Source: Acidobacteriota bacterium (GTDB lineage Bacteria > Acidobacteriota > Thermoanaerobaculia > Gp7-AA8). From it: a DNA stretch of 61,167 nucleotides. Below the pieces are notes generated by a model. It saw only the letters and a program-made list of their open reading frames with translations, searched no databases and was not told where the DNA came from. The stretch covers positions 1 through 61,167 of the forward strand of contig JAJPHC010000040.1 of the NCBI GenBank assembly GCA_021325515.1, read 5' to 3'. Positions 41,123-54,811 of this stretch are shown piece after piece (position 1 is the first letter of the stretch; the number at the start of each line of letters is the position of its first letter). The translations under genes and the position numbers were made by a program.

Positions 41123-41959
41123 ATGATCAGGAAGAGTGGGTTGGTGGTGGGGTTGCTCTTCGTCTGCCACGCGGCAAGCGCTGCCATTCTGTACGACTTT
41201 CAGCAGATCGCGCGCTCGGACTCGTCAGGACAGTCGGCGACCGAGTTCTCAGGCCGCGCAGTGATCGATGGCGATCGCTCGCGTGTCGATGTCGTCGGCG
41301 GCAATGCCTATACGCCGGGTGTCTACATCATTTCCACCAACGGTTCCCGCAGCCTGACGTTCGTCGATCCTTCGAAGAAGGCCTACGCCGAGGTGAATGC
41401 GGGAGGCGTGGCAGCGTCGGTGGGCGCGAGCAACATCACCATCGACAACCTCACGCACTCCGTCAACAAGCTCGACGACCATCCGGTCTACGCCGGGGTG
41501 CCGACCGATCACTATCGCCTGACGATCGCCTACGACATCACGCTGACGATGGGAACGATCATCCTCAAACAGAACGTCCACACCACGATCGACAAATGGA
41601 CGACCGTCATCTTCGGCGATGTGGCGGAGACGTTTCTCGCAAACAGCGGCATTCGCACCGGCAACCCGAAGCTCGACGAGATCGTTTCGCTCGAGACGAC
41701 GAAGATCAAAGGCTTTCCTCTGCGCGAGACGATGGAGACGACCACGACGGACGCGCGCAACGCGCCGCCTGAGTCGGAGTTGGCGCGCAGCGGCGCATAC
41801 AGCCGCATGCGCCACCAGAGCCGCGAGATGACGATCACCTCGATCCGTCAGGGCGAGCCGCCGGCGAACACGTTCATCGTGCCGGCCACCTACAAGAAGG
41901 CGGACTCCGGCGACGAGAAGCTCTCCCAGACGCAGGTGCAGACGCTTTCGATGCAGTGA
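41123..41959 (+). CDS. Exported protein of unknown function
   Basis: 278 aa with a signal peptide (MIRKSGLVVGLLFVCHAASA). The mature part is beta-rich: ILYDFQQIARSDSSGQSATEFSGRAVIDGDRSRVDVVGGNAYTPGVYIISTNGSRSLTFVDPSKKAYAEV. It resembles small secreted proteins that record or bind membrane-derived ligands (a DUF4412-like plan), but I cannot place it firmly. It is a periplasmic candidate, divergent from the lolA gene with which it shares a 70-bp upstream region. Followed at once by a REPIN. Confidence 0.65.
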   Translation: MIRKSGLVVGLLFVCHAASAAILYDFQQIARSDSSGQSATEFSGRAVIDGDRSRVDVVGGNAYTPGVYIISTNGSRSLTFVDPSKKAYAEVNAGGVAASVGASNITIDNLTHSVNKLDDHPVYAGVPTDHYRLTIAYDITLTMGTIILKQNVHTTIDKWTTVIFGDVAETFLANSGIRTGNPKLDEIVSLETTKIKGFPLRETMETTTTDARNAPPESELARSGAYSRMRHQSREMTITSIRQGEPPANTFIVPATYKKADSGDEKLSQTQVQTLSMQ

Positions 41960-42080: not shown

Positions 42081-43394
42081 ATGAGTAACCTCTTCGCCAT
42101 CGGCGATCGCCTCGGCGGTTTTCTACGCAGGCAGCCGGCGTACCTAGCGATCGCTCTCCCCATCGCCATTCCCTTTCTCCTGGCCACGGTGAGCCTGCAC
42201 GATCCGTCCGCGAAACCGGCTGCGGCGAGCAGCGGTCCGCACCTCAACTACGCGGATCTCATGGCTGCTTCGGCCCCGTCACAGCTTCCCGATCATTCGG
42301 TGATCCTGCCGATCGAGGAGGACGACACGCTGGATGCCGTTCTGCTCAGCGGCGGTCTGACGCGCGGCGAGAGCGCGGCGCTCACCGCGCAGTTCGCGAA
42401 ATCCATCGACGTTCGCCGGCTGCGTCCCGGCAATCTCGTTCGTTTTCACTACGGCGAGAATCAGAGACCCGACAGCATTGAGCTGAAGATCAACGGCTGG
42501 GGCAAAGTCGACGCGCTGCGCAACGGCGATCACTTCGACGTCACCGCGCGCGAGGCGGAGATCCGCGAGATCGAGAGCACGATCTCGGCGAAGATCGACA
42601 CGTCGCTGTACGAAGCGATCCGCAGCGCGGGGGAGAGCCCGCAACTGGTGCAGCAACTGGTTGATGTTTTCCAGTGGGACATCGATTTCTTCGCGTTGAA
42701 AAAGGGCGACTCATTCAATGTCGTCGTGAAAAAACGGTTCGCCGGCAGCGACGACATCGGCTACGGCCCGATCAGCGCCGCCCGCTTCATCCATGACGGC
42801 GAGACGTACGAGGCGTTCCACAGCGACACCGGCTACTACAGCGCCAACGGCACGCCGCTTCGCAAACAGTTCCTCCGTGCGCCGCTGGCGTTCACGCGCA
42901 TCACATCGACGTTCTCCAACCGCCGCTTCCATCCGCTGCTCCACTACTTCCGCCCGCATCACGGCGTCGATTACGGAGCTCCGACCGGCACGCCGGTCAT
43001 GACGACCGCCGACGGCGTCGTCGTCGAAGCGGCCTACAACCGCGGCGAAGGGAACTACATCAAGGTGCGTCACTCCGCGCGCATCGACACGATGTACCTC
43101 CACCTCTCGAAGTTCGCAAAAGGCATCAAGCGCGGAGCGAAAGTCACGCAGGGACAGGTCATCGGTTATGTCGGCATGACCGGTCTCGCGACGGGACCTC
43201 ACCTCGATTACCGGGTGCAGGAAGCGGGTGTGTGGCTCGACCCGCAGAAGATGAAATCGATCACACCAGATCCGCTGCGTGGCGATGCACTGCGCGTGTT
43301 CCGCAATGAAGTCGTCCGCCTGACGCCGCGGCTCTCTGCTCCACCGGCGCAGGTTGCACAGAGTGCCGTGCCGAAACGGCGGGCACTTTTCTAG
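42081..43394 (+). CDS. M23-family murein endopeptidase (MepM-like)
   Basis: 437 aa. One N-terminal membrane/signal helix (LAIALPIAIPFLLATVSL, about residues 22-39). Middle region (70-270) resembles the OapA/LysM-like and MepM second domains (DDTLDAVLLSGGLTRGESAALTAQF). LytM peptidase domain about 285-400: RFHPLLHYFRPHHGVDYGAPTGTPVMTTADGVVV contains the zinc pair HxxxD, then HSARIDTMYLHLSKFAKGIKRGAKVTQGQVIGYVGMTGLATGPHLDYRVQ. The family HxH is here H-L-D, so the zinc-binding second histidine is replaced by aspartate. It would cut peptidoglycan cross-links in the periplasm. Neighbour of the GHMP-kinase fusion, 17 bp upstream of it. Confidence 0.9.
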   Translation: MSNLFAIGDRLGGFLRRQPAYLAIALPIAIPFLLATVSLHDPSAKPAAASSGPHLNYADLMAASAPSQLPDHSVILPIEEDDTLDAVLLSGGLTRGESAALTAQFAKSIDVRRLRPGNLVRFHYGENQRPDSIELKINGWGKVDALRNGDHFDVTAREAEIREIESTISAKIDTSLYEAIRSAGESPQLVQQLVDVFQWDIDFFALKKGDSFNVVVKKRFAGSDDIGYGPISAARFIHDGETYEAFHSDTGYYSANGTPLRKQFLRAPLAFTRITSTFSNRRFHPLLHYFRPHHGVDYGAPTGTPVMTTADGVVVEAAYNRGEGNYIKVRHSARIDTMYLHLSKFAKGIKRGAKVTQGQVIGYVGMTGLATGPHLDYRVQEAGVWLDPQKMKSITPDPLRGDALRVFRNEVVRLTPRLSAPPAQVAQSAVPKRRALF

Positions 43395-43411: not shown

Positions 43412-45274
43412 ATGAAAAAAGTGATTGTCCGGGCGCCGGTGCGCGCCGATCTGGCTGGAGGCACTCTCGATCTCTGGCCGATTTACCTGTTTCATCCGGG
43501 ATCGCGCACCGTCAACGTCGCGATCTCCTACTACGCCGAGTCGGAAGTCGCGATCGCCGGCGATGGCGCGTTCGAGATCAATCTGACGGACCAGCAGTAT
43601 CGCCGCCGCTACGCATCGATCGCCGAAATGGCGGCCGATCCGAAAGCGGCGCTGATCCATCGCGTGGTCGAGCATTTTCATCTTCACGGACTTCGCATCA
43701 CGACACGGACGGATGCACCGCGCGGCTCCGGCCTCGGTGGCTCGTCCGCGCTGGCCGTCACACTCGTCCGCGCGTTCTCGGAGATCGCCGGGGCGCCCAT
43801 CGACGGCGATGCTCTCATCGCGCTCGTTCGCGATCTCGAGACGCGCCTCCTCGGCGTTCCCGCCGGGATTCAGGACTACTACCCGCCGGTGTACGGCGGG
43901 CTCGCAGCGCTGCATCTCAATCCCGGCATGCCGGCGCATCATCCCGTCGGTATTCCGCTGCACGACCTCACTGAGCACTTCCTGCTGCACTACACCGGCA
44001 TCGCTCATTTCTCCGGCACGAACAACTGGGAGATGTACAAGCGGCAGATCGAGGGAAACGAAAGCGTCCGCTCCGGATTCGCACAGATCGCTCAGACAGC
44101 GATCGACATGGAGCGTGCTCTTCGCAGCGGAGACTTCGAAGCGGCGGGCCGCGCGCTCGCGCTCGAGTGGACGAACCGGAAAGCTCTGATCGAAGGCATC
44201 TCCACTCCCGAGATCGACGCGGCGATCGCTGCTGCGACGGCCGCGGGTGCGTGGGGCGGCAAGGTCTGCGGTGCCGGCGGCGGAGGCTGCATCGTGTTTC
44301 TGCTTCCGCCCGACCGGCGCGAGGCGGTCACGCGCGCGCTGGCGACCGTTCCCGGCCGCGTACTCGAAGCCGTTCCGGTTGCACACGGACTCACGATCGA
44401 TCGCGGCGACGACGGCACCTCGCTCAACAGCGGCCGCGGCCGGCTTCCGGTGCGCATCGCGGGCGAATCGGTGGATCAGCTCTATGTCTACGGCGGACAG
44501 GGCGACTACCGGCCGTTTCTCTTCGCCGAAGGTGTGATCACGTACAACGAGTCGCGCAGCGGCGTGCATCTCTCGCTCGTCCGCTCCTACATCGCGCCGA
44601 TCGAGCCGGCGGACGGCAAGGTCTCCTGGGACCGCGCGACGCCGGTCGATCAGGAGAAGCTCGACATCCGCGCCGTTCCCGATCCCGCGCACAAACTCGA
44701 CCTCGGAGTCACGCCCGAGGCGCTGGTGCAGAGCGCGGCGCAGTCGGAAGAAGCATTCCGGCAGTACGTCGAAGAAACCGAAAAGCTGCGCATCTACAGC
44801 AATCAGGCATTCGCGATGTATTCCAACGCGAACGAAAGCCGCGAGTCCTTTCTGGAGCGCTGCATCGACGAAGCGAAGCGGCGTCTGAATGAAGAATCCG
44901 AGCGGCTGGAGAGTACGTTCCGCCGGCGCATCGATCAGTTGCGCGAGCGCGCCGAGCGCGAAGAGCGCGATGCGATCAAGGACGACCTGACGCCGGAAGA
45001 GTCTCCGCAGAACATGAACGTCGCATGGGGCCAGGCGCTCTACAACATCACGAGCGGGCGTCCGGCGGCGGTCAGCGATGCTGCATCGACCGTTCGCGAA
45101 GTCGACTATCTCGAGAACATCGCGCAGATTCAGCGCTCCTGGGACAAGGAGCTCGAGACCTTCCGCGATGAACTGATGCAGAGCGCGCGTGCAATCGAAG
45201 AGATCGAAGTCGCCCCCGCCGCGAAGAACATCGAGATCACGAAGTACATCATTCTCTGGTCAGCCGCGCTATAA
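43412..45274 (+). CDS. GHMP sugar kinase fused to a HerA/DUF87-type C-terminal module
   Basis: 620 aa, about twice a normal GHMP kinase. Residues 1-330 are a complete kinase: N-terminal VRAPVRADLAGGTLDLWPIY, ATP-binding DAPRGSGLGGSSALAVTLVRAF (about 101-121), and the third GHMP motif WGGKVCGAGGGGCIVFLLPP (about 281-300). It is closest in style to D-glycero-D-manno-heptose 7-phosphate or fucose/sugar kinases. Residues about 345-620 carry no kinase motif. They resemble, from memory, the C-terminus of HerA-like DUF87 ATPases: YRPFLFAEGVITYNESRSGVHLSLVRSYIAPIEPADGKVSWDRAT, then a long coiled coil SFLERCIDEAKRRLNEESERLESTFRRRIDQLRERAEREERD (about 479-520), ending EIEVAPAAKNIEITKYIILWSAAL. No Walker motifs precede it. 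The reading frame is continuous. Confidence 0.75.
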   Translation: MKKVIVRAPVRADLAGGTLDLWPIYLFHPGSRTVNVAISYYAESEVAIAGDGAFEINLTDQQYRRRYASIAEMAADPKAALIHRVVEHFHLHGLRITTRTDAPRGSGLGGSSALAVTLVRAFSEIAGAPIDGDALIALVRDLETRLLGVPAGIQDYYPPVYGGLAALHLNPGMPAHHPVGIPLHDLTEHFLLHYTGIAHFSGTNNWEMYKRQIEGNESVRSGFAQIAQTAIDMERALRSGDFEAAGRALALEWTNRKALIEGISTPEIDAAIAAATAAGAWGGKVCGAGGGGCIVFLLPPDRREAVTRALATVPGRVLEAVPVAHGLTIDRGDDGTSLNSGRGRLPVRIAGESVDQLYVYGGQGDYRPFLFAEGVITYNESRSGVHLSLVRSYIAPIEPADGKVSWDRATPVDQEKLDIRAVPDPAHKLDLGVTPEALVQSAAQSEEAFRQYVEETEKLRIYSNQAFAMYSNANESRESFLERCIDEAKRRLNEESERLESTFRRRIDQLRERAEREERDAIKDDLTPEESPQNMNVAWGQALYNITSGRPAAVSDAASTVREVDYLENIAQIQRSWDKELETFRDELMQSARAIEEIEVAPAAKNIEITKYIILWSAAL

Positions 45275-50772: not shown

Positions 50773-53571
50773 CTACGAACTTCCCGACATCGCTTCGTAA
50801 AACTCGACGACGGAGTCGAAGCGCTCTACCGCGTTCTTCGACAGCGCGCGATGCACCGCCTCGGCAGCCTCCACGGAGACCTCCGGCGCGAGCTTGCGCA
50901 ACGGCGGCACCATCTCTTCCGTGTGGCTCTTCACGATCGACGCGAGATCGGTCGCATGTCCGAACGGATGCTCACCCGTGAGCAGCTCGTACGCGATCAG
51001 CCCCAGCGCGTACTGATCGGAACGCGCATCGGCGCCGCGCCCGCTCAGCAGTTCCGGTGCGAGATACATCAGCGTGCCGACGACTCCCACACTCTGCGCC
51101 GACTGCACGACGGTCGCCTCATGATCGCCGATCGGCCCGCTCAGCTTCGCGAGGCCGAAGTCGAGCACGCGCGGCGACAACGCTCCTCCCTCATGCACGA
51201 TCATGATGTTCTCCGGCTTCAGGTCGCGATGAACGACGCCGGCGCGATGCGCGGCATCGACGGCCTCGCACACCGGCTTCATGATCTCCAGCATCCGCTC
51301 GAACGGCTGCGCGCCTGCATTGATCGTTTTCCGCAGCGTCTGTCCTTCGAGATGCTCCATCACGAGATAGGCGTGACCGCCGGAGAGCACGCCGAAGTCA
51401 TGCACCGTCACGATCGCCGGATGCTTCAGGCGCGCGACGATCCGCGCCTCGCGCTCGAAGCGGCTGCGCATGCTCGGGCTGCCGACGAGATGCGCGAGCA
51501 GCACCTTCACCGCAACGGGCCGGTTGAGTCTCTTCTGCGTCGCGAGATAAACGGAGCCCATCCCTCCGCGGCCGAGGATTTTCGTGACGAGGTATTTGTC
51601 CTCGATCATTCGCGGCACGCCATGCTCCTGCACGAGCGTCTGATGATCGACCTCGCACGCGGCCTGATCGGCGCCATAGCAGCGGCCGCACGCGGGACAG
51701 GAGCGGAGCTCATCGAGAATCGGCGGCGGTGCCGCTTCCGCGAGAGGCGACCAGACGAACGATGGCGAGCCCTTCAGCCGCGCGTAATCGAAGGTGAGCG
51801 CCAGTTGCGCCGCGATCGTGCGGAGCAGCTCGCGGTCTTCGCGGCTGTAGGGTTCCTCCGACATCCGCTCGCCGAGGACCATGAGACCGGCGAGGCGGTT
51901 TTCGATGAGCAGCGGAACCAGCAGATATGCGTCCGCCTCGGCGAGCCAGTCGCGCTCGGCGGCCGGCAGGCGCGTCACCAGCGTCTTCGTCGTGCGCGCG
52001 TGCAGATCGAGCGGCTCCGGATCCGTCGCGAGCAGCGTCGGCAGCGCACCGGTGGACGGCAGCGGCGAGACGATCGCGTCCGACCGCTCGCCTCGCGCGA
52101 ATGCACGCGAGAGCTCCCTCCCTTCGCGATCGAGCTGCCAGAGCGAGACATGTTTCGGATGCAGCGCGCTCTCGACTTCATCCAGCGTGACGCGCGAGAG
52201 GCCGATGATGTCCGAGCCGTCGCGCACCATCGACACGACGTGCAGCATCAGATTGCGCGCATCGTACTGCTCGCGGAAGTAACGCCGGTCGAGTGCGAGC
52301 AGCAGGCGCTTGCGATATCCGATCATCAGCGCGAGCGGCAGGATCAGCAGAAGATAGATCGCCGGCGTCCGCGTCACGACCGCGGCGAGGGAATCGTGGC
52401 GATGGAGATAGAGATAGGCGACCAGGCCGATCACCGGGAGCGCCATCGCCACGAACAGCGTTCCGCGCGCCAGCGCGTATTGAATGCTGCGCCGCACCAG
52501 CACACGGATGTTGAACATCCGGTGACGAACGACCGCGTAGGCGAAGATCGCCGATCCGGCCATCGTGCAGAGACTGTTCGCAAGATCCGCGATCTGATCG
52601 AGCGCGAAGCTTTCGAAGAGATGAAGAATGTTCGCCAGCACGAAGCCGAGCACGCCGGGGAAGAGCGCGAGAAAACAGAGTTGCAGACGGCGCCGGCTGT
52701 TCAGATCCTTCGCGCGGCGAAGGCGGAACGCGAGGATGAGCAGCGACAAGATCAGCAGCGCCGGCCCGAGCGTCAGATACACCGAGCTGTGCGCCGGGAT
52801 GGCCAGCGTCGCCGGATCGTTGCCGGCGTGACGAATGTCCGATCCGAGCGCTTCGATGAAGATCGGCAGCGGCAGCAGGTACAACAGCGCGCGCCAGGCG
52901 CGAGGCGGCCGCCCATGACCGGCGAACACCACTGCGAAATGCAACGACGCCGCGAAGAAGGCGGCGACGAAGACGCTGTCGGTGATGTAGATCGCGAGCC
53001 GCAGCCATCGCGGCAGTTCTGCGATCAGTGCGCCGAAGCCCGGCGCATCGGCGAAGAAGTTCCCTCCCGCCCAGTAGAGGAAGAAGAGCGATGCGAGCCG
53101 CGCGTCCTTGTACTCGCCGCGAATCAGCAGCAGCGCGATTCCGAGCGCGAGCATCCAGATGTTCAGCGGATACCAGAAGTAGCTGTTGATCGCGCCGAGC
53201 GTCCGCTCGCCGCCGGCGAGGAGCGCTTCTTCGCGCGCTTCCTCGTTCATCACCGGAACCGCGAAGAGCGTGACGTGGCGGCGGCCGCGCTCTACGACGA
53301 TCGGAACCGTGTCGCCGGCGCTGGTGAAGTGCATCGGCGAGACGCGCGGCGCAAGAGGGATTCCGTTGATCGAGAGAATGCGGTCGCCGGGACGGAGTCC
53401 TGCACGCTCCGCTGCTCCACCATGGACGACGCCGGCGACGATGCCCGTCGCGCGCGAGAGCTCCGCCTGCAGCGAAGGACGCACGGCCTGGTTGTAGCCG
53501 GCCGCCACAACGAATGCCGCCGCAATGAAGAGCTGGGCCCAACAGAAGACGAGCAGCGGCCGGAATTTCAT
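50773..53571 (-). CDS. Membrane PDZ-GAF protein with C-terminal serine/threonine kinase
   Basis: 932 aa from the ATG at 53571. Domain order: signal-anchor (about 6-26), PDZ (about 40-105, GGAAERAGLRPGDRILSINGIPL), a block of about seven transmembrane helices (130-415), GAF (about 440-597), a zinc ribbon CPACGRC (about 625-631), and at the C-terminus a complete Hanks kinase (about 658-928): GRGGMGSV, AVKVL, HRDLKPENIM, DFGLAK, APELL. Bacterial kinases usually begin with the kinase domain; here it is last, behind sensory and membrane modules. It should phosphorylate cytoplasmic Ser/Thr targets after a periplasmic or membrane signal. It is divergent from the zinc-ribbon membrane protein at 53633. 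Confidence 0.9.
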   Translation of the reverse strand: MKFRPLLVFCWAQLFIAAAFVVAAGYNQAVRPSLQAELSRATGIVAGVVHGGAAERAGLRPGDRILSINGIPLAPRVSPMHFTSAGDTVPIVVERGRRHVTLFAVPVMNEEAREEALLAGGERTLGAINSYFWYPLNIWMLALGIALLLIRGEYKDARLASLFFLYWAGGNFFADAPGFGALIAELPRWLRLAIYITDSVFVAAFFAASLHFAVVFAGHGRPPRAWRALLYLLPLPIFIEALGSDIRHAGNDPATLAIPAHSSVYLTLGPALLILSLLILAFRLRRAKDLNSRRRLQLCFLALFPGVLGFVLANILHLFESFALDQIADLANSLCTMAGSAIFAYAVVRHRMFNIRVLVRRSIQYALARGTLFVAMALPVIGLVAYLYLHRHDSLAAVVTRTPAIYLLLILPLALMIGYRKRLLLALDRRYFREQYDARNLMLHVVSMVRDGSDIIGLSRVTLDEVESALHPKHVSLWQLDREGRELSRAFARGERSDAIVSPLPSTGALPTLLATDPEPLDLHARTTKTLVTRLPAAERDWLAEADAYLLVPLLIENRLAGLMVLGERMSEEPYSREDRELLRTIAAQLALTFDYARLKGSPSFVWSPLAEAAPPPILDELRSCPACGRCYGADQAACEVDHQTLVQEHGVPRMIEDKYLVTKILGRGGMGSVYLATQKRLNRPVAVKVLLAHLVGSPSMRSRFEREARIVARLKHPAIVTVHDFGVLSGGHAYLVMEHLEGQTLRKTINAGAQPFERMLEIMKPVCEAVDAAHRAGVVHRDLKPENIMIVHEGGALSPRVLDFGLAKLSGPIGDHEATVVQSAQSVGVVGTLMYLAPELLSGRGADARSDQYALGLIAYELLTGEHPFGHATDLASIVKSHTEEMVPPLRKLAPEVSVEAAEAVHRALSKNAVERFDSVVEFYEAMSGSS

Positions 53572-53632
53572 CGTGGTGACCTGACGATTGTAGTGGAGTG
53601 GTAGCATCGGCCACACACCCCGGAGGATTGCC

Positions 53633-54811
53633 ATGTACGGCTCGCCGCAGAGCTCTTCGATCGACCTCGCGAATATGTCCTGCGAAGGATGCGGCGTTTA
53701 TGACGCGAGTCTCCGCTTCTCCACGCACCCGACGGTGATCTCGTTTCTCTTCGGTGCGTCTCAGGGAGGAGAGTCGGGCATCTGGTGCGCGCGCTGCCGC
53801 GGCATTCAGTCCGCCAAGGCGGCGGCGATCACCGCGCTGGCCGGCTGGTGGTCGATTCCCGGACTCCGCGCAACCATCGCCGCGCTGAAAGCGAACCTCA
53901 ACGACGGCGAGCAGAACGCGACGGCGAACGGACAACTGCTGCGCGGTCTGGCGCGCACCGAATTCGACAATGGCAATCCGGAGTTCGCGGCGATGTTCGC
54001 GCAGGCCGCGCACGACGTGCAGCCGCAGCGGGAGAACAGCCGTCTGCTGGAGGATCTTCGGCGCTCCGGTCATCGCGCGGCGGTTCCGCCTTCACCCTGG
54101 CGCTACGCGGCGATCGTGCCGGTCGTGCTCGCCGCGCTGCTCGCGTTGTTCGGAGCTTCGCGCCTTCTGTCGCGCAAGGGTGCGGAAACCGCAGTCGCCG
54201 CGAGCCAGCCGCCGGCATCGACGACGTCGACGTCCGGTTCGAACTTCGCCGCGCTCGCCGCAGCGAGATCGCAGGGACATCCGAAACTCAATCCCAATGC
54301 GACCGCGGACGAGCTCGAGAAGCTGCTGACTCCTGACTCTGACGAGGCGACGGTCAAGACGTACATCCGTACACGCCTCATGGAAATGAAGAGCGAGCTG
54401 CGTCCGGCAATCGAGCGCGGCGACAGCCTGATCATGTTTCAGTCGAAGATCGACGCGCTGGCGCAGCAGCCGGCGGTGACGAAGTACATGTCGACGAGGC
54501 CCGCGCTGCGCAGTGCATTCGACTCGCTCAGCTCGGCGATCGGCGATGCGATGCGTTACTACCACGGCGGGGCGCCGGTCGACGCGATTCAGCGGACGGC
54601 AGGTGAGTCGCTCAACGTCACGAGCAACATGGCATACGACGCGATTCAGGCGCAGTCGAAAGGACACTCGGGGGAGAGCAGCATTCTCGTTACCGATATC
54701 CAGAACCGTTCGGACTCGATGGAAATGATGCGACTCGACCTCCGAGTCCGCGGTGCAGTCATCGGAAACGTGGGAGAAGCGATCAACAACTGTCTGAACG
54801 AGATTCCCTGA
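53633..54811 (+). CDS. Zinc-ribbon membrane protein of unknown function
   Basis: 392 aa. An N-terminal zinc ribbon (MSCEGCGVYDASLRFSTHPT...GIWCARCRGIQSAK, two CxxC pairs) precedes a transmembrane helix (YAAIVPVVLAALLALFGASRLL, about 159-180). After it comes a Ser/Thr/Pro linker and a helical region with DSDEATVKTYIRTRLMEMKSELRPAIERGDSLIMFQSKIDALAQQ. The start ATG is 61 bp from that of the divergent membrane kinase, which also has a zinc ribbon; a shared regulatory theme or phosphorylation relation is possible but not shown. Probably inner membrane. Confidence 0.65.
   Translation: MYGSPQSSSIDLANMSCEGCGVYDASLRFSTHPTVISFLFGASQGGESGIWCARCRGIQSAKAAAITALAGWWSIPGLRATIAALKANLNDGEQNATANGQLLRGLARTEFDNGNPEFAAMFAQAAHDVQPQRENSRLLEDLRRSGHRAAVPPSPWRYAAIVPVVLAALLALFGASRLLSRKGAETAVAASQPPASTTSTSGSNFAALAAARSQGHPKLNPNATADELEKLLTPDSDEATVKTYIRTRLMEMKSELRPAIERGDSLIMFQSKIDALAQQPAVTKYMSTRPALRSAFDSLSSAIGDAMRYYHGGAPVDAIQRTAGESLNVTSNMAYDAIQAQSKGHSGESSILVTDIQNRSDSMEMMRLDLRVRGAVIGNVGEAINNCLNEIP

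Follow-up and report, generated by a model that had tools for sequence, protein, structure and literature searches.

A sugar kinase of the GHMP superfamily is encoded here in one uninterrupted gene with a module that, judging by profile comparison, otherwise forms the C-terminal part of DUF87/HerA-like ATPases, and the motor of such an ATPase is missing from the fused protein. The gene occupies positions 43412-45274 of the forward strand of the window, by which is meant the whole 61,167-nucleotide stretch of Acidobacteriota DNA analyzed, starts with ATG, and is a single open frame of 620 codons, as the first-pass annotation (made from the letters of the sequence) had reported of the frame's length. 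It comprises a kinase half, a variable linker, and a tail of about 270 residues, and constitutes a new architecture in which a known enzyme family is joined to a module that has no name in the libraries searched (Pfam, NCBIfam, and PADLOC, all with the fusion as query). The fusion is not an accident of assembly, since full-length copies with 44-71% identity are encoded in 17 other genomes, and all 18 copies found are unbroken; the concern raised at the outset that the frame might resolve into two genes in relatives was thus not borne out. The copy in G011 was counted with one TGA inside it; the match there is 3 bases longer than the 620 codons open in L033, which is the same sequence, and the TGA is therefore taken as the terminal stop.

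The kinase half (residues 1-325; 43412..44386, forward strand) corresponds closely to the first 330 or so residues previously assigned to a GHMP kinase. Membership of the superfamily is indicated by Pfam matches to GHMP_kinases_N at residues 83-163 (3.5e-16, 59.6 bits against a curated cut-off of 22.3) and GHMP_kinases_C at residues 233-311 (1.3e-14, 54.8 bits against 21), together with retention of the catalytic and ATP-binding residues; the motifs PRGSGLGGSS and GKVCGAGGGG, quoted in the first reading, are both present. The nearest solved structures are heptose kinases or putative sugar kinases (PDB 3k85, 1.2e-46; 4usk, 3.6e-35; 4n3o, 1.1e-29), of which 4usk, whose numbering fits, is taken here to be WcbL. 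WcbL activity is reported to be abolished by R13A, D22A, the triple substitution S118A/S119A/S120A, Q162L, and D163A (PMC4691232). On alignment to 4usk, these essential positions fall on R11, D20, G110-S111-S112, Q154, and D155 of the window kinase. R11, D20, S112, Q154, D155, and the GAGGGG stretch (287-292) are invariant in the 18 fusions, and variation is seen at S111 (P in L033) and G110 (A in L019). Since the kinase keeps the residues essential in WcbL, it is probably an anomeric kinase acting on a sugar or a sugar phosphate. It resembles the WcbL/HddA heptokinases (4usk, 4n3o, 3k85) in this respect but differs from them in carrying about 290 extra residues after the kinase, and its gene does not lie beside a GmhA-like gene.

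Assignment of the fused kinase as HddA (D-glycero-D-manno-heptose 7-phosphate kinase) was considered and rejected: it scores 122.1 bits against the NCBIfam equivalog cut-off of 600, and the GmhA-like gene is found near a different kinase. In the window's genome, GmhA-like matches (below the family cut-off) lie on contigs C4 and C39, and the fused gene lies on C10. About 8 kb from the GmhA-like gene on C4 is a paralogous GHMP kinase, which groups apart from the fused kinases in the kinase tree, and in G004, G009, G013, and G017 this paralogue is within about 1.1 kb of the GmhA-like gene. Across the 18 genomes of the family, GmhA (TIGR00441) and RfaE domain I (TIGR02198) gave matches below cut-off only.

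The tail (residues 352-620; 44465..45271, forward strand) is less readily placed by domain libraries. Searched alone against Pfam it matched nothing better than Apolipoprotein (0.084), the window protein gave no DUF87 match at E 0.1, and inspection by eye found no P-loop or Walker motif ahead of the tail, in agreement with what had been noticed earlier. When 60 genomes including the window's own were searched, the protein aligned over its full length in 18; elsewhere in the host class the kinase aligned alone and the tail aligned with separate frames of about 770-910 aa. The motif GMTGSGKT is present in all 14 of the long tail-bearing frames aligned (one of which, as used, begins right before it), and Pfam recognized DUF87 in each of the seven tested (0.00076 to 1.4e-9), five matches being above the cut-off of 23.2 bits and the other two just below it, at 20.1 and 21.4 bits. 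A profile of the 18 fused tails matched that of the 14 ATPases in hhalign with a probability of 99.8% and an E-value of 3.7e-29 over 263 columns, covering ATPase columns 497-784 of 797, and comparison of the fused with the ATPase tail profiles gave 99.9% and 6.5e-31. In the hhalign alignment, W406, E475, and R483, which are invariant in the 18 fusions, pair with the ATPase residues W526, E595, and R603, which do not vary among the 14 sequences. These comparisons indicate homology, along the whole length of the tail, to the C-terminal module of some 280 residues found in the approximately 780-residue DUF87/HerA-like ATPases of the host class, from which the window protein differs in having neither Walker A nor DUF87 motor and a sugar kinase instead. 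The first-pass annotation had arrived at the same family from a C-terminal pattern, and the C-terminus that it quoted is present; its assignment was right, and the profile comparison that it had set as a test produced the match.

Such ATPases are common in the phylum, the ATPase profile finding matches in 100 of 297 genomes, with the long class frames other than the 14 taken in full being called ATPases by length and match position only. Against the PDB, the fused-tail profile returned one chance-level match (0.53) and the ATPase profile returned seven: one phage protein, and six that are either HerA-like helicases or a coupling protein. The phage protein, Phi92_gp134 (PDB 21vq_V), matches in the tail region only (547-750 of 782, E 0.0011), which could reflect either chance coiled-coil similarity or a copy of the module carried by the phage.

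The module also exists in free-standing form. Among the 297 genomes, 22 frames of 288-341 aa, all outside the host class, match only the tail part of the ATPase profile, and of 20 tail-only loci taken, 18 hold clean frames of 279-339 aa, L106 a run-on frame, and L115 a remnant. Fused and free tail profiles align in hhalign at 99.9% (1.1e-35), and free and ATPase tail profiles at 99.8% (4.2e-28). The free-standing proteins, of about 290 aa, therefore share a homologous module with the fusion but differ from it in being separate genes with no kinase nearby, a six-frame search of 6-11 kb around the 20 loci having found no GHMP kinase of this kind. The one free-tail protein tested against Pfam (L096) gave no match. 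Compared by eye with the free-standing and ATPase tails, only the fusions display a WGQ tip. Within the host class, a free-tail profile built from 15 of the 18 clean frames (L101, L105, and L112 left out) matched 59 of 119 genomes at E <= 1e-6; every one of these matches falls either within a kinase fusion (18 genomes) or within a frame of 629-1133 aa, and none was in a tail frame of about 300 aa.

Several features of individual free-tail loci can be recorded. L115:5095-5571 (G289:C5) is a 159-aa frame in which an ATPase-like start runs into a tail end, as would follow from an in-frame deletion of the motor core, and could be an independent loss of the core or an assembly error. The free tail gene is flanked in L100 and L108 by genes for a CT398-like coiled-coil/zinc-ribbon protein and an NAD kinase; an MnmA-like gene comes after it in L102, and its neighbor in L114 is an NFACT gene.

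Two donors for the fused tail have to be weighed. In family f5 of the host class, an unfused kinase lies just upstream of an ATPase frame, on the same strand and contig, in 6 of the 10 genomes having both (G048, G051, G339, G343, G351, and G372; not G021, G024, G033, or G054), an adjacency derived from compared coordinates, with the G339 kinase cut by a contig end and G048 and G051 alone taken in full. Outside the fused order, 15 genomes from other families were compared, and none shows this arrangement. In G048 and G051 a LysM gene on the opposite strand stands between kinase and ATPase, and the resulting order of M23 peptidase, kinase, LysM, and ATPase, combined with the lack of tail frames of about 300 aa in the class, suggests an ATPase as donor. 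The occurrence of kinase and ATPase as neighbors in one lineage and of kinase and tail as a fusion in another also provides Rosetta-stone evidence of a shared function. That the fusion arose by deletion of the motor-encoding segment from an ATPase gene which closely followed the kinase is nevertheless put at about even odds, because the two kinase-adjoining f5 ATPases, L074 and L078, rank only 6th and 7th of 14 when scored with the fusion profile. A small LysM gene adjoining the ATPase on the opposite strand was observed in the f5 loci L132:6140-6565, L133:7274-7720, and L070:976-1407; the L132 copy has LysM and a weak BON match, and the other two were recognized by their similar C-terminal sequence.

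Since the module is free-standing elsewhere in the phylum, an ATPase need not have been the donor, and a plain fusion of the kinase with a free-standing tail gene is a serious contender, although in our estimation it falls a little short of an even chance; it concerns the origin of the tail only, and the present role may be the same. Suitable genes do exist in other classes, and for all 18 fused tails the free-tail profile gives a score no lower than that of the ATPase profile (111-155 against 92-128 bits, with one virtual tie at 0.2 bits). A tree of 50 tails, including 18 of the 20 free loci (the L106 run-on frame and the L115 remnant left out), resolves separate fused (100/97), free (99/96), and ATPase (94/77) groups, does not put the fusions inside the ATPases and, unrooted as it is, has fused and free tails on one side (94/77). 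Against this origin, the 119 class genomes yielded no free tail frame of about 300 aa, no kinase accompanies the free tails sampled, and the kinase-ATPase gene order is one that does occur in the class. In AU tests, placing the fusions beside the f5 ATPases falls short of the best tree but is not rejected (p-AU 0.186), nor are other groupings (0.255 and 0.223), the grouping of fused with free tails being already in the best tree. Scored in the other direction, the best match of the fusion profile is an f5 ATPase (L070, 100.6 bits; best free tail 93.9), and the top four ATPase tails are all from f5. The tree, the AU tests, and the profile scores do not decide between an ATPase and a free gene as donor.

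Structure prediction gives the module a recognizable outline. Modelled alone by AlphaFold2 from 17 sequences (mean pLDDT 81.6, pTM 0.65), the tail is predicted to comprise a sheet and closing strands together with a long helical hairpin and its short tip helix, the last of low confidence (pLDDT about 47-62). The first long helix of the coiled-coil hairpin spans residues 477-524 (44840..44983), close to the coiled coil that the first-pass annotation had put at about 479-520, and includes the stretch ERLESTFRRRIDQ, conserved in the fusion alignment. The tip helix, NVAWGQALYNITSGR, occupies residues 536-550 (45017..45061), the second long helix residues 561-593 (45092..45190), and the C-terminal strands residues 594-617 (45191..45262), among them W616, which is invariant in the 18 fusions; all of these features are on the forward strand. 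The whole-protein model (mean pLDDT 72.8, pTM 0.49) is of a confidence too low for reading the arrangement of the domains.

In a fold search of the tail, among the checks proposed in the first reading, the first three Foldseek matches of the model in the PDB were to RapA, at E 0.017-0.12 and a TM-score of 0.21. Alignments made with VIA extend to the C-terminal end of RapA (Z 6.1-6.7, rmsd 5.1-7.0), but coiled coils of RNA polymerase beta, at Z 7.0, score as high or higher, a level that the tool calls common. A RapA_C (PF12137) profile made from three sequences, E. coli RapA and two Acidobacteriota homologues, gave no support for a relationship with the three tail profiles (hhalign probability 0.7-1.6%), and the tail has no Pfam match. 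Kinship with the RapA C-terminal domain is not claimed, because profile-profile support is absent, and the likeness of the model to it is treated as resemblance only. The model matched nothing in BFVD at E 0.001 or better.

The fusion is present in 17 of the 18 genomes of the host family (all but G003) and in G018, the sole other genome of the host order searched, and the fused kinases, the window's included, form one clade (SH-aLRT 98). Among 69 kinase homologues, a comparison that leaves out the partial kinases L067 and L069, 282-295 residues follow the kinase in the 17 fused proteins and 0-38 in the other 52. Across seven pairs, dN/dS ranged from 0.08 to 0.19 in the kinase and from 0.17 to 0.44 in the tail; both halves are under purifying selection, and the tail is constrained less than the kinase. 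Mean pairwise identity across 17 genomes is 75% for the kinase, 55% for the tail, and 35% for the linker (residues 326-351; 44387..44464, forward strand). The most conserved part of the tail is the hairpin-tip helix, with a mean top-residue frequency of 0.89 and 7 of 15 positions invariant in 17 sequences. On the same measure the kinase reaches 0.83, the two long helices 0.71-0.74, and the sheet 0.61. Of the tip residues, W539, G540, Q541, and G549 are retained in the G018 copy, which is more distant. Because selection maintains both halves, the tail is likely to have a function of its own.

That function must usually be performed without the motor. An intact ATPase was found with the ATPase profile in two of the 18 family genomes, G003 and G012, and none was found in 16 of the 17 that carry the fusion; five of those 16 are less than 90% complete, so that single absences may be gaps. 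The genome of the window is among the 16, the only other match in it being a 45-residue P-loop stretch. Docking of the kinase, by way of the tail, onto a separately produced DUF87/HerA-like ATPase is another reading, favored by the tail being that ATPase's own C-terminal module and by the coexistence of fusion and ATPase in G012 and G018, but with an intact ATPase found in so few fused genomes it is very improbable. Least credible, and very unlikely indeed, is the view of the tail as a non-functional ATPase remnant that stayed attached to the kinase when a deletion removed the rest. The loss of the motor and the poorly conserved linker speak for it; against it stand the constraint on the tail, its identity across 17 genomes, the 18 unbroken copies, and conservation of the hairpin tip at the level of the kinase, which are not what decaying sequence would show. 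The relic of a deletion entertained in the first-pass annotation is accordingly contradicted insofar as decay was meant, the deletion itself having the even standing given above. G003, which belongs to the same genus as G012 and is 97% complete, has a full ATPase, lacks the fusion, and gave no kinase match at E 0.001; its lack of fusion and kinase is a loss or an assembly gap.

The surroundings of the gene are conserved on one side. Directly upstream lies a gene for an M23 murein endopeptidase, ShyC/MepM-like (42081..43394, forward strand), matching Pfam Peptidase_M23 (9.1e-29) and Csd3_N2 (2.1e-15), with NCBIfam matches to ShyC, ShyA, and MepM all below their cut-offs. Six-frame searches found an M23 gene immediately ahead of the kinase and on its strand, both in the window and in all 17 fused relatives, so that the murein peptidase noted earlier is both real and conserved. 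It also directly precedes 12 unfused kinases of the class (L116, L119-L128, and L132) and was not found upstream in seven class loci (L117, L118, L129-L131, L134, and L135), of which L134 and L135 belong to a distant paralogue group in the kinase tree; L133 stands outside the count, its contig ending 305 bases upstream. In the 30 kinase loci of other lineages (L038-L066 and L068), many of them from Blastocatellia, Armatimonadota, or unplaced records, M23 was found upstream in no case, given a search with the window's own M23 as query at E 1e-10, which very distant M23 genes would escape. Upstream of the M23 gene, a 278-aa ORF (41123..41959, forward strand) is matched by tblastn in all 17 fused relatives, gave only DUF4412 (0.0077, below cut-off) in Pfam, and is possibly a third member of the unit. 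LolA and TGT genes were matched in 15 of the 17. Downstream, the 643-aa ORF previously described as a glycan-type membrane protein exists but has no Pfam or NCBIfam match and was found in none of the 17 fused relatives, three of whose contigs end within 1.1 kb of the fusion. The surface-polymer reading built on the two neighbors thus has the peptidase to rest on, which is conserved, and not the membrane protein, which is not.

From these observations we would give an even chance to a two-part protein in which an HddA/WcbL-type kinase carries a tail serving as a motor-independent docking or oligomerization arm by way of its hairpin tip. The tail is a module, predicted as beta-sheet and coiled-coil hairpin, that is common to the DUF87/HerA-like ATPases and the free family of about 290 aa; acting without a motor, its conserved tip would place the kinase next to a partner, and this placement would tie sugar activation to cell-wall turnover. 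Conservation and the predicted fold point to the docking role, and gene order to the link with wall turnover, set against which five related class kinases (L117, L118, and L129-L131) have no M23 gene upstream. A broader and more speculative proposal, which we regard as rather unlikely, is that the tail is a portable recruitment module with three clients (a HerA-like motor, none, and a sugar kinase), the kinase having replaced the motor in the host order and so linked wall hydrolysis to sugar activation. If so, the operon of an M23 endopeptidase would include a sugar-1-kinase that is directed to its target by what was once the tail of a motor, and the link would be a direct physical one.

Under the two-part reading, the C-terminal module of a HerA-like ATPase group common in the phylum would seem able to work without its motor, and the fused kinase offers a small handle for asking what the module binds, as well as a candidate for connecting the hydrolysis of murein with the activation of sugars. 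Among the literature matches listed for HerA/DUF87 ATPases, GHMP kinases, and heptokinases, the module is not described, and no title or abstract start among them concerns a kinase-tail fusion; passages of PMC10853773 hold nothing relevant to either. Elsewhere in the window, 50776-53634 on the reverse strand encodes a 953-aa protein with PDZ, GAF, and Ser/Thr protein kinase domains.
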